DNA of 64,000 nucleotides from positions 1 through 64,000 of the forward strand of contig JAIORZ010000002.1 of assembly GCA_021107855.1 (NCBI GenBank). Direction: 5' to 3'. The notes under the pieces are model-generated. The model did not search any database, was not told the origin of the DNA, and worked only from the letters and a program-made list of their open reading frames with translations. The translations under genes were made by a program, and so were the position numbers. Source of the stretch: an archaeon. Its GTDB lineage: Archaea > Nanobdellota > Nanobdellia > Pacearchaeales > GW2011-AR1. Within the stretch, counting starts at the first letter, position 1. Every line of letters starts with the position of its first letter. Shown here piece after piece: positions 51,604-62,020 of the stretch.

Positions 51604-52021
51604 TTTTTTAAACCTCCTTTCAGTACTATTAGGTTAGCCGCCTTTTTCAAGGCTGTGGAAATCCACATTCAACTTTTCTAACAGTCTGGCAGGTCTTATA
51701 ACTTAGGGAGCGTTATAAGTTGTCATCTCTAGGATCCCTATATGTACACTGACGTCAATGCATTATTGATTAACAATAACGCTAAACAGCTCACTCACTT
51801 TCCCTATATAAAGCTTACCCCGCATACCGTCGACAAACCCCGAAAATACCCAATTTTAGCTGGTTTACTTATAAAGCTTTCGTTATCACAAGAAAATACA
51901 ACACATATACAACCAGTCCATTATCACTTTAAATCTTATAGGCGATATATATGGTACAAAATAACCCATATCTATAAAACATAAAGTTTATATATCTAAA
52001 TAAACTTACCCTATATATAAA
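51604..52021 (-). promoter_or_regulatory. Promoter and about 180-nt structured leader of the S-layer gene
   Basis: Minus-strand A-box ctttatata at about 51805-51815 implies a start near 51780. The leader holds three perfect inverted repeats: CTTATAAC/GTTATAAG (51695-51702, 51712-51719), GTGGA-AA-TCCAC (51655-51666) and GCCTT-TTTC-AAGGC (51640-51653). A Shine-Dalgarno GGAGGT lies about 8 nt before the ATG. Beyond 51820 the stretch to 52021 is AT-rich with the divergent regulator's A-box (tatatataaa near 52012) and no gene visible. Confidence 0.6.
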
Positions 52022-55399: not shown

Positions 55400-57403
55400 C
55401 TACAAAAAATTCTGCGTCGGCCTAATAATCACATTACAACCAGCTCCCTCGCTAACAAACTCATCCCTACACTTAATATAATAAGTCTTATCCTCATTCC
55501 ACTCCGCAACATGAACCGTGCTCTTCCCATACGGCATCTCCGTCCCCTCATCAAACACAAAATCACAATTATCAAAACTATACGCGCAATCACTCTCCCG
55601 AGTCGTCACAATTTTCAACATATTATCCTCCTCATAAATCCTCGCAACAATCGGCGGATTCGTATCAATATCCAAAGTAAAAGTAACATTACTATTAACC
55701 AAATTCCCACCCGCATCGATACAACGAACATAATAAGTATGTTGCCCCCCGTGCAAATCCAACCTCTGCGTATTAATCCCATCCTCGGTATTCGTATCAA
55801 AAAACTCAATATAATCCACCCCATCGTCAGACCAGAAACAAACTGCCCGACCGTTATTACAACCGAACAAAGTCTCCGCATACAACTCAACAGGCATCGG
55901 GTCAATCGCCCCACTAATCGTCTCATTCGGTCGCAAATTCTTCAAAACCAAAGCCGTGCTCCCCCTCAAACTAAACACATAACTCTGCTTCATAATATTC
56001 ACATCATCAGCCCTGTCAGCACATCTAACATAAAACTCCGCCCCATCTCTAGGAATTCCACCCAACTCACTAATACAAGTAAACAACAATGCAGTATTCG
56101 ACTGATAAGTCTCATCCCCACAATCCATATCATTCATCATATTCTCATAAGACTGGTCAACAGTACTCCACCTACACTGCGCCGGCTCATTCGTATAAAA
56201 CCGAACCTCCGCCATATCAACACCCTCAGCAACACACCCACCATTCATAACCGAAGTCGCCTCAATCAACGGAGCCGTACTATCAGGCGTCGGATCCACA
56301 CAGAAATTCACAGCATACTCAGCCCCATTCTCATTCCCATTCTTATCCCGACACCTCACAAAGAAAGTCAGTTCCTCACCATTCTCAATAATCAAAGACC
56401 CATTCTTCAAAGCCGCAGAACTAGGCAACCTGAAACTCTCACTATGATTATACAAATACAAATTACTCCCACCCATATAACTAACCATATCATCAAATTT
56501 CTCCGTATGGTTAAAATCAATCCTACACTGCGCCGGCTCGTCTATACTCAAACCAAACTCCAACGGAGTAAACGCCAACAAACACCCATCCGAAGCATCA
56601 GTCCTAATAATATTAAATCCCGGTCCAGGAGGTGAATTTCTAACATTAGTATACTCATGCCCAGAAGTCAACACAGCATAATTCGGCTTAATTATCGGCG
56701 GATTCACATCCCTCGGATTCACATAAACACACTTCTCCTCCTCGGTCCCAGAATTCACAATCTCACAAGCTTGCCCCAAAGACTTACATCTATACTCCGA
56801 ACACGGCAAGTCCTCATCATTACAAATCTCACAATCATTCCCCCCAGTCGGCGCCTGCCAAGGCATACAAGTAAACGTCACAACCTTCGTGTCAACCTTC
56901 TTATACATCATAGCAAAAATAACAACCGCAACAGCAAGACCAACCCAACCAGCATTCCCACCCAAAGTACCCTCTGAGCCAAACATACCTGAACCCCCTA
57001 ATCCATCCCCCTCCGCATAAACGGACAAAGCCTTATACACTCCAGCCCCAGCAGCCAACGCTGTCCCCAAAGCTTCACTATTATCCGAACTCATCCCCAA
57101 CATATCCCCAAGCATTGTCCCAAGAAAATAAGCCATCACAGCCCACTGCACACCCGAAGCCAAAGCACTACCGCCAGTCCCCTCGTCAAGTCCTAGCATA
57201 TCAGAAAGTCCGGAATCGGTGTTTGTGGGGGTTTGGGCATTGCTTGAACCCTTATTAGACAACTCATCAAACTTCTTCTGTTCCTCAGGGGTAAGAACCT
57301 TATCAGCTCCACTAACAACTCCTATCATAAATGCAAAACCAACAATTCCAAAAACCAACAACCAAACCTGCAACAAGGCAGCGCCTTCCACACCAATCTT
57401 CAT
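55400..57403 (-). CDS. Large Cys-rich surface protein with Ig-like repeats
   Basis: About 667 residues from ATG 57403. N-terminal TM or signal (LLQVWLLVFGIVGFAFMIGV), two more hydrophobic stretches (residues 85-180), then a region with CEICNDEDLPCSEYRC and at least four Ig/fibronectin-like beta repeats each with the pattern QCR-(Y/F)..., ending YYIKCRDE. It is a paralogue of the partial gene at 62814: both hold GSNLYLYNHS, a CRW...M(D/V)C unit and the same C-terminal unit. Probably an adhesin or stalk. Confidence 0.75.
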   Translation of the reverse strand: MKIGVEGAALLQVWLLVFGIVGFAFMIGVVSGADKVLTPEEQKKFDELSNKGSSNAQTPTNTDSGLSDMLGLDEGTGGSALASGVQWAVMAYFLGTMLGDMLGMSSDNSEALGTALAAGAGVYKALSVYAEGDGLGGSGMFGSEGTLGGNAGWVGLAVAVVIFAMMYKKVDTKVVTFTCMPWQAPTGGNDCEICNDEDLPCSEYRCKSLGQACEIVNSGTEEEKCVYVNPRDVNPPIIKPNYAVLTSGHEYTNVRNSPPGPGFNIIRTDASDGCLLAFTPLEFGLSIDEPAQCRIDFNHTEKFDDMVSYMGGSNLYLYNHSESFRLPSSAALKNGSLIIENGEELTFFVRCRDKNGNENGAEYAVNFCVDPTPDSTAPLIEATSVMNGGCVAEGVDMAEVRFYTNEPAQCRWSTVDQSYENMMNDMDCGDETYQSNTALLFTCISELGGIPRDGAEFYVRCADRADDVNIMKQSYVFSLRGSTALVLKNLRPNETISGAIDPMPVELYAETLFGCNNGRAVCFWSDDGVDYIEFFDTNTEDGINTQRLDLHGGQHTYYVRCIDAGGNLVNSNVTFTLDIDTNPPIVARIYEEDNMLKIVTTRESDCAYSFDNCDFVFDEGTEMPYGKSTVHVAEWNEDKTYYIKCRDEFVSEGAGCNVIIRPTQNFL

Positions 57404-57467
57404 AGACAATACAATATTTCTTTATTTATAAATTCTATTGTAGCAAGCTAAACCATCTATCAGAAAA

Positions 57468-58187
57468 TCAATCATTAGATAATTCAACTAAATCCCTGGT
57501 AATGTTAATTTCTTTCTTAAAAACTTCAGAGCACTCATCCTGTTGAACATAAATTGTGTATTTCCCAGGACTTTCTTTACTTACTCCATTTAAGTTATCT
57601 ATCCAATCTCCAGAAGTCACTTTTGGGCTACTGGTATAACCCATCCACGTTTTCTTTCCTTCTCTCCTTCCTTGTGAAATCTTGTTTCCGCTAGAATCCA
57701 AAACAAAAAAAGTTATCGGCGAAATAGATGTTGTTTTTAAATCAACGCTTAACCCATATTCATCTAAATTCACAGCTCCATCAACCTTCCCTAAAACTTC
57801 TCCCTTATCCAGCTTCCCATTCCCATTAAAATCCTTCCAATACTGCACAATCAACTTCCTCTTATGCTCAATCGGACTCGACCCGACCCGTTCCCCTCTA
57901 TCATGCTGAGCATCACTCCGATTCTCCGCATCTCTCACCACATAACTATGCATATGAGCCTTAACCAAACTCTTCCCAAATCTATTCCCCGCAGGTGTAA
58001 CACATCCAGAACTCAAACCAGCAACAGTAAGGGCAACAACTCCAATCAACCCATTCTTTGCACCCTTCACCAAATCAACATCAGAAGCCAAGCCATCACC
58101 AAGACCATCATAAATCTTATTCCCCAAATTCCTAGCTCGCTCATTCAAGCCAGCTCTCATCCCCGAAACATACTTTTCAATTGTCAT
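57468..58187 (-). CDS. Hypothetical lipoprotein-like protein with an EF-hand-type loop
   Basis: 239 residues. A hydrophobic segment around residues 48-62 ends ALTVAGLSSGCVTP, a possible lipid-attachment Cys, but it is preceded by 47 residues, unlike a normal signal. A calcium-loop-like DFNGNGKLDKGE lies near residue 118. The first half of the gene (toward 58187) has the skewed base composition of the window and the second half does not, suggesting a fusion. No family recognised. Confidence 0.55.
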   Translation of the reverse strand: MTIEKYVSGMRAGLNERARNLGNKIYDGLGDGLASDVDLVKGAKNGLIGVVALTVAGLSSGCVTPAGNRFGKSLVKAHMHSYVVRDAENRSDAQHDRGERVGSSPIEHKRKLIVQYWKDFNGNGKLDKGEVLGKVDGAVNLDEYGLSVDLKTTSISPITFFVLDSSGNKISQGRREGKKTWMGYTSSPKVTSGDWIDNLNGVSKESPGKYTIYVQQDECSEVFKKEINITRDLVELSND

Positions 58188-58401
58188 ATAATTACATATC
58201 TCCTAACTATATAAACCTTTCTATTTGTAACTATTCGATAGAGACAACACTACTATCCCAAAATCATAAAAAATAAATAAAGGGTAACCAATGGTAACCA
58301 CATCCACAAAAAATTTGTGTATATAACATGGCGAAACCACACACACAAATTTATTTTTCTCATAATAACATCCTCCATATTTTATTTTAACAAACATTAA
58401 T
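58188..58401. other. Intergenic region with GGTAACC direct repeat
   Basis: AT-rich. GGTAACCA occurs twice 10 nt apart (around 58276-58294), and each GGTAACC core is near-palindromic. CACAAA-AAA-TTTGTG is nearby. May hold operator sites for the gene starting at 58187. No convincing gene. Confidence 0.35.
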
Positions 58402-58761
58402 CTACCCACACCGAACAGAAACAACAACATCCTCATCCAAATTATCTACCTTAGAAATCAAAAAAGTTTTACTCTTCTCTCCAAACGACACAGCAAACAT
58501 ATTATCAATATCAAACAAAGTGCATTCAAGAGTTCCGGACGACATATCTAATCTCAAAATAAACCCCATATACCAGATATCAAGCGAACCATCCTTATAC
58601 TCAAAAGGTTTATCCTTCTTCAGCAACGGCAACTTTATCGCCAGCTCACAATTTTCATTAGAATTCTTCTTAGACCAATTCCCAGAAGAAGCAAAACACG
58701 CCAAAAGGAAAAGGCCTCCAGCCATAATCACAACAAAACAAAACAAGTTTATATTTTTCAC
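58402..58761 (-). CDS. Small lipoprotein-like secreted protein, bacterial style
   Basis: 119 residues from GTG 58761, with a bacterial-type SD (GGGGG) just upstream. N-terminus KNINLFCFVVIMAGGLFLLAC looks like a signal peptide with a LLAC lipobox. Mature part is small, beta-like, with cysteines NCEL, LECTL and VRCG. Composition is balanced. No family recognised. Confidence 0.5.
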   Translation of the reverse strand: MKNINLFCFVVIMAGGLFLLACFASSGNWSKKNSNENCELAIKLPLLKKDKPFEYKDGSLDIWYMGFILRLDMSSGTLECTLFDIDNMFAVSFGEKSKTFLISKVDNLDEDVVVSVRCG

Positions 58762-58869
58762 GGCATCCCCCTTTTAGCCATTATTTCAATTAATACCAAC
58801 AAACCAATTCCCTAAATACATATCCGACAAATCAAACACACACATAGAAAATCGCCCAACAAACAGCGA

Positions 58870-58909
58870 CGGGCTTGCGTGCGAACAAACACCTCCACAC
58901 ACAAGCCCG
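58870..58909 (-). terminator. Hairpin terminator after the beta-barrel gene
   Basis: CGGGCTTG (58870-58877) pairs with CAAGCCCG (58902-58909), extended by GTG/CAC after one mismatch. It lies 6 nt after the stop of the beta-barrel gene. A GC-rich hairpin at this place is more typical of bacterial termination. Confidence 0.45.
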
Positions 58910-58915
58910 ACCGGA

Positions 58916-59770
58916 TTAGAACTTCAGAACAAATCCACCAGCTATCGCCTCTTTATTAAAATCGACGACGACCACACCTCCGAACATAGGATATTCAATA
59001 CCAATTCCAGGCAAGAAAGTCTTTTTATCCCACTCAAAGTCAATATTAGAATCCATCGAATCTCCGCTCGGAAAGGTATAATACTCTTCCAAGTCGACTT
59101 CCACATTGGTCGCAGAGTAACATACATTACCCTTTATTGCCAATCCACGAAGAAAAGTCTTTTCAAAAAACCACGCCTTCCCCTCAAGACCAGCTTCCAT
59201 ATGAGTGATTTCCATTTCCGCCTCATAACTATCCGGAAAAGAATATCCAGCAACAACTGCCTCGGTGAAGTCCACTCCATTCAGAGTCATCTCAAGGTCT
59301 TTTACCTTTGCCTTGTAACCTTCAGCCCAGCAAGATAACGCAAAGTATTTACCCTTGACAACAGGGATAATAATTCCCCCACCAAAATACGGCGTATTCT
59401 TTCCCGATTCAAATCCAATATCCTCCCAGAGACCACCAGGCATCTTATCAAAATCAGTGAGTTCCACTTTCATCAACCCGACCGTAACATAAGGATTCAC
59501 ACCACCAGGCAAAATAATCCCAAAATCTCCAGATACCCTCTCTGTATTGAGAATCCCGTCTGGTTGATTTTCATCATTGGACCCACTGTCCTTATATGCC
59601 ACCGTCCCATCCGGATTATAAGCTGTTATATCAAAATCAAACCCATCGGCACTCATATCCTCTTCAAAAGAACCCGCTTCCAGTTTAAAAGTAAACAAGT
59701 CACCTGCAAAAGCAACTCCACTCCAGCCAACAATACAAACTACAATAAGCATTAAAGTAAATCGTTTCAT
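58916..59770 (-). CDS. Probable bacterial-type outer-membrane beta-barrel protein
   Basis: 284 residues. Sec signal MKRFTLMLIVVCIVGWSG... with a cleavable AFA|GD site; the mature part alternates polar and hydrophobic residues in short strands separated by turns (e.g. YVTVGLMKVEL, GGGIIIPVVKGKYFALS) and the final residue is Phe (GGFVLKF), the signal read by the BAM complex in bacteria. Archaea of this kind should lack such an outer membrane. Strong SD GGAGG and a leader shared with the gene at 59850. Horizontal transfer or a bacterial assembly fragment are both possible. Confidence 0.62.
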   Translation of the reverse strand: MKRFTLMLIVVCIVGWSGVAFAGDLFTFKLEAGSFEEDMSADGFDFDITAYNPDGTVAYKDSGSNDENQPDGILNTERVSGDFGIILPGGVNPYVTVGLMKVELTDFDKMPGGLWEDIGFESGKNTPYFGGGIIIPVVKGKYFALSCWAEGYKAKVKDLEMTLNGVDFTEAVVAGYSFPDSYEAEMEITHMEAGLEGKAWFFEKTFLRGLAIKGNVCYSATNVEVDLEEYYTFPSGDSMDSNIDFEWDKKTFLPGIGIEYPMFGGVVVVDFNKEAIAGGFVLKF

Positions 59771-59796
59771 AACATTTCCTCCATTAAATTAAAAGT

Positions 59797-59847
59797 TTAT
59801 AAAAATTAAATTAGAAAACATCCTCAATCAATAAGACCTCCTTTCAA
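59797..59847 (-). repeat. Duplicated SD-containing leader, copy 1
   Basis: About 50 nt, in the sense GAAAGGAGGTcttatTGATTGAGGATG and then a T/A-rich stretch to the gene's own SD. Matches the copy at 59987-60036 with few differences. It would come before the beta-barrel gene. Confidence 0.55.
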
Positions 59848-59849
59848 AA

Positions 59850-59972
59850 TTATCCTTCCTTGTCTTTATACTCCTTCCTTGCCCTCCATCGAACAAAGAA
59901 CATAACGGCAACTGCCATTAAAACTATGACCAATAAAGCTGGTAAATCTTGATGTATATTAGAACCAAACAT
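59850..59972 (-). CDS. 40-residue single-TM protein
   Basis: ATG 59972 to TAA 59850, with SD CAGGAGGAATGTT just before the ATG. MFGSNIHQDL, then a TM (LLVIVLMAVAVMFFV) and a basic tail (RWRARKEYKDKEG). Same size and layout as small bacterial membrane subunits such as CcoQ-like or stress peptides, but no family can be assigned. Precedes the beta-barrel gene. Confidence 0.6.
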   Translation of the reverse strand: MFGSNIHQDLPALLVIVLMAVAVMFFVRWRARKEYKDKEG

Positions 59973-59986
59973 AACATTCCTCCTGT

Positions 59987-60036
59987 TATAAAAATTAAAT
60001 CAAAAGCATCCTCAATCAGTAATACCTCCTTTCACA
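59987..60036 (-). repeat. Duplicated SD-containing leader, copy 2
   Basis: Second copy, in the sense GAAAGGAGGTattacTGATTGAGGATG, before the 40-residue gene. The two copies imply duplication of an upstream control segment. Confidence 0.55.
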
Positions 60037-60337
60037 TTTTTCAATACGATAAAATTTGCATAATAGTTCTTCGAACTTTCTTTCAAAATCAAAGTCCAAA
60101 CTATGTCAATTAATCAAAGTCCAAACGTATTTCACTCACCTTCAGAAAACCTCAGAGGTATTCCGGGTACGAGCGAACGCCTGAACCAAATTTTTAACAC
60201 AAGTTTTTATATAATCACCACGCGAAAGCGTGAGTAGTAGTTGTAGTTTCTGTTAGTTTTGCATATTATGTTATACAAAAAACTACACACAATCCTTTAA
60301 AAACTTTTCCATTGTCACTACTCAGAAAAGACAATAC
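60037..60337. other. AT-rich intergenic region
   Basis: No gene seen. Contains two direct copies of aatcaaagtccaaac (about 60087-60125), a short hairpin ACGC-GAAA-GCGT (about 60221-60232) and a copy of a tRNA-Ser 3' end. Confidence 0.5.
60160..60175 (+). repeat. Copy of the tRNA-Ser(CGA) 3' end
   Basis: ATTCCGGGTACGAGCG differs by one base from the T-arm/acceptor end ATTCGGGGTACGAGCG of the tRNA-Ser at 30794-30809. Such partial copies often mark attachment sites of integrated elements. Confidence 0.45.
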
Positions 60338-62020
60338 TTACCCCGTACTCGTCTTAAGAATTCCTCCAGTTGAAGTCAACTGAGCATCATTCTTCGGTTT
60401 CTTATTCACTCCGTCTATAGTCCACTCATATCCATCATCCGTATAAACTCCCTGATAATTAACATAACCACCACAATCTCCAAGCATCGAACAAATTTTA
60501 TTCGCAGCCGCTGCCCAATTCTCCAACAAGCAATCACAATTTTCAACACACTTCTTATCTCCATACAACTTCTTCTCATAATAAACAGTACAGTTTGCAT
60601 GAGCCTGCCCACAAATTGCCGAAGCACTCGAATTATCCCAAAACTTCAAACCAGGCGGATAATTTGGAAGGCATAACCCAATACGTACCTCAACTGCCAC
60701 CTCGTCATCCTCGTCACCATCACCAAAAATCGACTTACCAGTAATCGGCGCGATAACAGACCCAGTACCAGCACTACTCCCCGGGTCAGATGCAGGCGCC
60801 CAATTCACTCCCGGCAATGCACTACTCCAAAGACAATCTCTCTTATCAATATTCAAACAATTCTCCTCCTTTGTCTGTATCATACAATCCTGCCATCTAT
60901 TAACCCTGCAAGCTGCCGTCCCAAAAGTTCCAGCACTAGTTTCAATCGAACCTTCCAAACAAATCTCATTCCTATAATCCGCACACGGCTCAACCCTCAC
61001 CTCACCATCCACACAAATTTCTCTATAATACCGTGAACCAGCAGGGTCCGTCCCCTCTCCAGTAACCCCATCATCAATACACCATGACTCCCCATTAATC
61101 CTCGCATTCCCGCTCCTATCCACACACTCAGTCCTCCTACAATAATGATCCCCATACTCCGGACCTCCAGCAAAACCACTCCACTCCGCACACCGACTTC
61201 CAAGCATATAATCACAATTTCCACAATCTATATCCGACCCACTATTAGGATCACAAACATCATCACTATCAATAACTTTCCCCCGATTCCAACTCCGAGC
61301 CATATCATCAGAATAAACATTCTCCCTATTCCCACAAGAATCAACCCAATAAACATCTCCCTTATAACAAGTCGTAGTCGTCTGCCGCGCACAAGCCGTA
61401 CTCAACTCTTCCGCCGAACAAAGAAAGTCCTGATAAAAAATCTTCCCACTATCAATCGACGCATTCTCATCAATTATCTCAACCTGCTCAACCGCCCCAC
61501 ATTCCCCACGCGTCGTAAAATCACAAACTCTCTCAAAATCCTTATCATAAACACACGCTCCAACATCCTGCGCATTAGCAACAGCGATACACTCAACCTC
61601 ACTCTTAATATCCGTCCGATAATCATTCTCAACTCCAAACAGCGTCGACAATCTCTTACATCGAACCAACGGAACAAACGCAGCCTGGTCAGCAATTATA
61701 CAACATCCAAGCTGACATTGCGGAATCTCATTAACTCCCCTCTCATCCCAAGTGCCACCACCATCCCTACAAACTACTCCAGGCGTCCTCTCCATACAAA
61801 TTCCCTCCTCACTCTCATAACAAGTCCCAAGCCTACAAAAAGAAGTCGATTCACACGAAGTCGGTGCAACGCTATAAGAAATATCACAAGCACTCTCTTC
61901 CTCATTTATACACCACCCTCCAGAAGTCGTCCTCTCGCAACAAAAACTCGGACCACTAGTAGCAGCCGCTCCAAGCCCAATCAGCAAAACAGCGACGAAA
62001 CCAAACATTAATTTATTCAT
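60338..62020 (-). CDS. Very Cys-rich secreted protein
   Basis: 560 residues with a signal peptide (MNKLMFGFVAVLLIGLGAAA) and several dozen cysteines, many as CC, CxxC or CxxxC (FCCERTTSGGWC; LGCCIIAD; NPGS-type loops with DCGNCDY). No TM at the C-terminus. No family recognised. ATGA-type overlap with the pilin-like gene upstream suggests it is part of the same surface structure, perhaps a disulfide-rich cap or adhesin. Confidence 0.7.
   Translation of the reverse strand: MNKLMFGFVAVLLIGLGAAATSGPSFCCERTTSGGWCINEEESACDISYSVAPTSCESTSFCRLGTCYESEEGICMERTPGVVCRDGGGTWDERGVNEIPQCQLGCCIIADQAAFVPLVRCKRLSTLFGVENDYRTDIKSEVECIAVANAQDVGACVYDKDFERVCDFTTRGECGAVEQVEIIDENASIDSGKIFYQDFLCSAEELSTACARQTTTTCYKGDVYWVDSCGNRENVYSDDMARSWNRGKVIDSDDVCDPNSGSDIDCGNCDYMLGSRCAEWSGFAGGPEYGDHYCRRTECVDRSGNARINGESWCIDDGVTGEGTDPAGSRYYREICVDGEVRVEPCADYRNEICLEGSIETSAGTFGTAACRVNRWQDCMIQTKEENCLNIDKRDCLWSSALPGVNWAPASDPGSSAGTGSVIAPITGKSIFGDGDEDDEVAVEVRIGLCLPNYPPGLKFWDNSSASAICGQAHANCTVYYEKKLYGDKKCVENCDCLLENWAAAANKICSMLGDCGGYVNYQGVYTDDGYEWTIDGVNKKPKNDAQLTSTGGILKTSTG

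Follow-up and report, generated by a model that had tools for sequence, protein, structure and literature searches.

The open reading frame at 58916..59770 (minus strand) of the window, by which we mean the whole 64,000-nucleotide stretch that was analysed, is probably a genuine gene of the archaeon, coding for an exported beta-barrel of the bacterial outer-membrane protein (OMP) type, which would have been acquired and used as surface cargo without a BAM machine of the host's own. The preliminary description had treated this protein as a single oddity, a view that had to be given up: the protein belongs to a set of OMP-type proteins scattered over the phylum, and the phylum-wide result is stronger than the case for the window protein itself. 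The contig that begins with this window measures 389,723 bp; the genome comprises 936 kb in 14 contigs and carries the gene in single copy.

The frame encodes 284 amino acids and begins with an ATG codon preceded by a clear Shine-Dalgarno GGAGG (59778..59782, minus strand). Its extent and strand had been given exactly in the preliminary description, and the anatomy that was described with them was confirmed on reading the sequence. The predicted Sec-type signal peptide, MKRFTLMLIVVCIVGWSGVAFA (59705..59770, minus strand), consists by inspection of MKR, a hydrophobic core and a cleavage site between AFA and GD. At the other end, the last amphipathic strand AIAGGFVLKF (58919..58948, minus strand) carries a C-terminal aromatic residue, the expected Phe of GGFVLKF, and is similar to a BAM-type beta-signal. 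Examples of strands with barrel-style alternation are LFTFKLEAGSF, RVSGDFGIIL, FLPGIGIEYPM, NPYVTVGLMKVEL, TPYFGGGIIIPV and GLAIKGNVCYSATNVEVDL.

The alternation was assessed by a simple count of alternating hydrophobicity, expressed as strands per 100 aa and percentage of coverage. The 284-aa protein reached 3.4 strands and 38% coverage. Both values fall among those of nine E. coli OMPs (2.5-4.7 strands, 32-65% coverage), which agrees with the barrel-like strands noticed earlier; compared with shuffles of its own residues, the values were only mildly raised (strands z 1.8, coverage p 0.12), as they were for OmpX and Tsx. Soluble or periplasmic proteins (n = 11) gave 0.5-3.1 strands and 9-33% coverage, with only FimA near the OMPs, and seven other secreted proteins of the same contig longer than 100 aa gave 0.6-2.3 strands and 7-27% coverage. 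The 119-aa product of the neighbouring gene scored 3.1 strands and 43% coverage, indicating that the count is unspecific for short proteins. Taken together, the signal peptide, the strand density and the terminal Phe suggest that the 284-aa protein is a barrel, which may have about 10 strands.

Searches for relatives of this protein were uniformly empty. No protein homologues were detected in 36 close relatives and 371 phylum genomes, where the weak matches (E 0.02-0.09) were short and chance-like; back-translated peptides found nothing in genome contigs or viral contigs, tblastn against plasmids and phages returned no relative and one chance match, and the PDB sequence search was empty. The Pfam, NCBIfam and PHROGs profiles contained no matching family; the OMP_b-brl profile PF13505 did not match the protein even at E<=10, so not above its curated cut-off, and had no matches elsewhere in the source genome. 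Pattern scans with two artificial alignments (the query with substituted copies, weighted for strand motifs) likewise revealed no relatives, such alignments being no evidence of family structure. AlphaFold2 predictions from the single sequence gave a pLDDT of 30-31 for both the precursor and the mature protein and nothing usable. Of the central claim of the preliminary description, the part that an OMP-like protein is encoded in a truly archaeal locus was supported; the barrel nature of the protein has its grounds in anatomy and obtained no confirmation from profiles or from structure prediction.

The missing profile match and structural confirmation are also what would be seen if the gene encoded a soluble beta-rich protein, secreted or S-layer-associated (an adhesin, a sandwich or a lipocalin-like barrel), that is OMP-like in its strand pattern only. 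In the strand count, FimA, a soluble beta protein, and the 119-aa neighbour come up to the low end of the OMP values, and the neighbours of the OMP gene are surface proteins. However, the strand density and coverage of the 284-aa protein exceed those of the other soluble proteins tested and of the seven secreted proteins from the contig, the protein ends in Phe, and proteins with clear OMP profiles are present in the same genus. We therefore regard a soluble protein as unlikely.

The preliminary description had also implied a BAM pathway, and this found no support. The BamA search that it proposed was carried out with one Pfam model, PF01103, on which the absence of Omp85 is based: there was no Omp85/BamA in the source genome (85% complete), in 33 relatives or in 279 phylum genomes, and the same profile matched 7 of 14 control genomes over its cut-off. 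An earlier survey also reported no Omp85 in archaea (PMC4104836).

The genome sizes and gene content of the phylum suggest that it is of the DPANN type. At the phylum level, PF13505 matched in 17 of the 279 genomes at E<=0.01 and in 8 at E<1e-3, against about 0.3 expected (E-values are per genome), and among the controls its matches were confined to E. coli, Caulobacter, Thermus and Bacteroides. Within the genus, 3 of 16 genomes had a match, two of them over the curated cut-off. In phylum and genus together, proteins of genomes G239, G011, G001 and G006 pass this cut-off. Several of the matches were accompanied by further OMP families (Autotransporter, Opacity, YfaZ, Surface_Ag_2, Chlam_OMP, TDE1717). 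When the sequences of ten archaeal OMP-like proteins were reversed, none matched OMP_b-brl, and composition and alternation therefore fail to explain the matches. No plasmid, PDB or viral relatives of the archaeal OMP-like proteins were found. A terminal Phe closes 9 of the 17 proteins, compared with 10 of 172 neighbouring genes (~6%; p 1.2e-7).

The retention of this residue in a phylum that lacks Omp85, together with the patchy and accessory distribution of the genes, would fit a barrel destined for the outer membrane of a diderm bacterium, be it partner or prey, where the partner's BAM would install it by means of the retained C-terminal signal. On the other hand, no delivery system was identified, the Phe may have been kept by inheritance or be needed for barrel closure, and one of two orthologues, that of genome G196, ends in Leu. 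We consider delivery to a partner's BAM rather improbable.

Several of the OMP-like genes have firmly archaeal surroundings. In G239, the gene lies on a 351-kb contig and encodes a 492-aa protein with a C-terminal barrel ending in FRYTF; it adjoins Diphthamide_syn, and a thermosome-type Cpn60_TCP1 gene occurs within a few genes. The barrel gene of G011 (287 aa, ending in FVWKF) abuts a threonyl-tRNA synthetase gene with an archaea-specific editing domain, and in G001 an OMP gene is located next to ThrRS in the same way, on its own contig. A search of 138 family genomes, a draw in which its presence was not known beforehand, did not recover the G011 protein. The orthologues of G133 (on a 382-kb contig) and G196, 28% identical, have their PAP2 and coiled-coil gene neighbours in common, and a third genome of that genus is missing the gene. 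As a group, the archaeal OMP-like genes are not contamination; they occur as patchily distributed accessory genes, which is what one would expect if they had been gained laterally and lost again more than once. The context was not relied on for the short contigs (G074, G225 and G001:C37) or for G006:C49.

Some of these loci deserve separate mention. At L115 (G006:C49) and L117 (G001:C37), the neighbours of the OMP-like genes look unlike the rest of the respective genomes, and both contigs are possibly bacterial contamination of the assemblies. In G113, a 649-aa protein (L108 6668-8617) combines a PKD domain with a weak C-terminal OMP-like match (DUF481) and a terminal Phe, and could possibly be a surface adhesin with a barrel anchor. 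The OMP-like genes at L103 (G157) and L106 (G047) belong to two different families, yet their surroundings are alike: each has lipoprotein-like genes nearby and lies between a gene for an FAD-dependent oxidoreductase similar to geranylgeranyl reductase and genes for large secreted proteins.

Returning to the window, the statement that the gene sits between archaeal pilin clusters was borne out: the flanking genes encode pilin-like KRG/KKGQ proteins and Ig-like surface proteins, and across the genus the gene order is conserved in a block that starts at 48 kb and extends past 64 kb. A ribosomal protein S4e gene is found at 16.8 kb of the same window. Upstream of the OMP gene lies a gene for a 560-aa surface protein (60338..62020, minus strand) that has orthologues in the genus, and downstream one for a 669-aa Ig-like surface protein (55400..57409, minus strand). 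In several relatives these two are the N-terminal and C-terminal halves of one fused gene of ~1370-1440 aa (G003, G005, G006, G009 and G014), in G001 and G012 they are adjacent, and elsewhere their joint is occupied by different cargo: a 736-aa secreted protein in G015, a nucleotidyltransferase-like pair in G008 and several genes in G004. In the window, the joint (57410-60337) contains, besides the OMP operon, genes for a secreted lipoprotein-like protein of 119 aa with the motif LLAC (58402..58761, minus strand) and for a 239-aa secreted protein with an EF-hand-like D-N-G motif (57468..58187, minus strand). Homologues of the latter occur in two congeners (E 6e-9 and 8e-9), in one of them (G004) at the same joint, and they identify this flank of the island, too, as archaeal. 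The OMP gene is a further insert at a site where insertion occurs naturally.

The same joint was recognised at L045, L046, L047, L049 and L051, with cargo that differs among G000 (the source genome), G004, G008 and G015. The EF-hand-like secreted family (DFNGNGK/DFNDDGE) is represented in the window at 57468-58187, at L049 6075-6734 and at L061 9866-10432; in G015, its gene has a tyrosine recombinase gene and a duplicate of the 669-aa gene as neighbours. Nucleotidyltransferase/HEPN toxin-antitoxin-like pairs were also observed between surface-protein genes at this locus (L051 in G008, L047 in G001 and L056 in G009).

The OMP gene is the second of an operon whose first gene encodes a small membrane protein of 40 aa with its own AGGAGG (59850..59972, minus strand). 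This frame lies between two copies of an extended Shine-Dalgarno sequence, TGAAAGGAGGT: copy 1 at 60024..60034 and copy 2, which is followed by a short leader, at 59836..59846 (both minus strand). A candidate archaeal TATA box (TTATATAA) is located at 60207..60214 on the same strand. In 144 kb, a strong GGAGG precedes 6.8% of genes versus 0.9% by chance, and TGAAAGGAGGT occurs four times, whereas ~0.3 occurrences of its 10-base core would be expected. Two of the four belong to the OMP operon, one precedes the S-layer gene and one the gene for a secreted 312-aa protein (C2:115718-116653). The leader with copy 1 is 81% identical over 42 nt to the leader of this 312-aa protein gene, and TTGAAAGGAGGTATA also stands ahead of the ATG of a further secreted protein, encoded near 224 kb of C2. 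The codon usage and GC3 of the OMP gene are inside the range of the genome. The expression signals of the OMP operon are native to the archaeon.

Leaders of the TGAAAGGAGGT type were seen at window positions 51612, 59836 and 60024, at C2:116662 and at C2 near 223977 (L067), and they mark secreted-protein genes (those of the S-layer protein, the 312-aa and 309-aa proteins and the OMP operon); these genes may have in common a leader for high expression. The leader and a very short reading frame together form a repeat of 53 nt, whose copies at 59802-59854 and 59990-60042 of the window are 79% identical. One copy precedes the gene of the 40-aa membrane protein and the other the OMP gene, and the repeat looks like a duplicated leader unit.

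These features bear on whether an assembly chimera or bacterial contamination placed a bacterial gene in an archaeal contig. The gene is an orphan with a bacterial-looking signal peptide and a terminal Phe, and two matches in the genus (G006:C49 and G001:C37) come from possibly foreign contigs. Yet it lies deep in a 390-kb contig with genus-specific genes on both sides, its codon usage is ordinary, and relatives show the same joint with different inserts. The OMP operon also shares its native leader with the S-layer gene, and a chimera is therefore very unlikely. Chimerism as the origin of the OMP gene, hardly credible on the evidence of contig, synteny, leader and codon usage, was rejected.

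The S-layer gene is relevant to the envelope as well. Its match to PF05124 (E 5e-4, below the curated cut-off) suggests a usual archaeal envelope, which argues against an outer membrane of the archaeon's own into which barrels would be inserted spontaneously or by an unrecognised insertase. Double membranes have been reported in a few archaea (Ignicoccus, ARMAN and Altiarchaeum; PMC8871954), and several OMP-like genes are placed in clusters of lipoprotein-like genes (G047 and G157). With no Omp85 and a PF13505 barrel in only ~6% of the phylum genomes, however, we judge an outer membrane of this kind to be quite improbable.

The course of events that we favour, with the protein as an acquired and exported barrel, would be as follows. 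The barrel gene would have been taken up laterally from a diderm bacterium; the fold type and the patchiness are what suggest this lateral origin, since the homologue searches found no bacterial donor. It became cargo in a surface-protein locus that repeatedly accepts inserts and came under the strong extended Shine-Dalgarno leader that serves the S-layer and other secreted proteins. The product would be exported by Sec and cleaved after AFA. Installation by an own BAM machine would be impossible as judged by the profile used, and folding would most likely take place outside the cell, followed either by unaided insertion into the envelope or the membrane of a partner cell, or by a role in binding or adhesion as a barrel that stays attached to the surface. 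The simplest reading of the function suggested by the sequence would be an exported, surface-used barrel that folds without BAM. The 284-aa protein would be one of the scattered accessory barrels of the phylum, and the best reading of these archaeal OMP-type barrels is that they are laterally acquired and accessory and work, having no BAM of their own, either on the surface of the archaeon or in the membrane of a partner; the mechanism is what we infer. We propose only tentatively, and with some doubt, that the phylum uses bacterial-type OMP barrels as functional surface proteins without Omp85, either self-inserting into a membrane outside the cell or passed on to a bacterial partner for its outer membrane.

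To our knowledge, OMP barrels are regarded as a hallmark of diderm bacteria and of the organelles descended from them, where they always come with Omp85. This pairing is broken by an archaeal phylum that has barrels, in firmly archaeal gene surroundings, but no Omp85. The barrels raise the question whether such proteins are inserted without a machine, remain outside as soluble surface proteins or are placed in the membrane of another cell.

In the open literature searched, we found no report of OMP-type barrels without Omp85 across such an archaeal phylum, besides a tentative mention by the authors of work on the PopA superfamily of lipid-trapping porin-like proteins, who point to a DPANN archaeon of the Altiarchaeales as the possible owner of a distant relative (PMC12228718). 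PopA and its relatives are an OMP barrel family, but the PDB sequence search gave no sequence link to the window protein, and this archaeal mention is single. Compared with Omp85/BamA-dependent OMP biogenesis, the C-terminal aromatic residue of the window protein resembles the BAM signal, whereas its genome and phylum lack Omp85. The closest likeness in anatomy is to the bacterial 8-10-stranded barrels of PF13505 (OMP_b-brl). Some relatives in the phylum and the genus pass the Pfam cut-off of this family, whereas the window protein itself goes unmatched and its host is an archaeon without Omp85; like small OMPs such as OmpX, OmpW and Opacity, it has a Sec signal, short amphipathic strands, a glycine-aromatic pattern and a C-terminal Phe.
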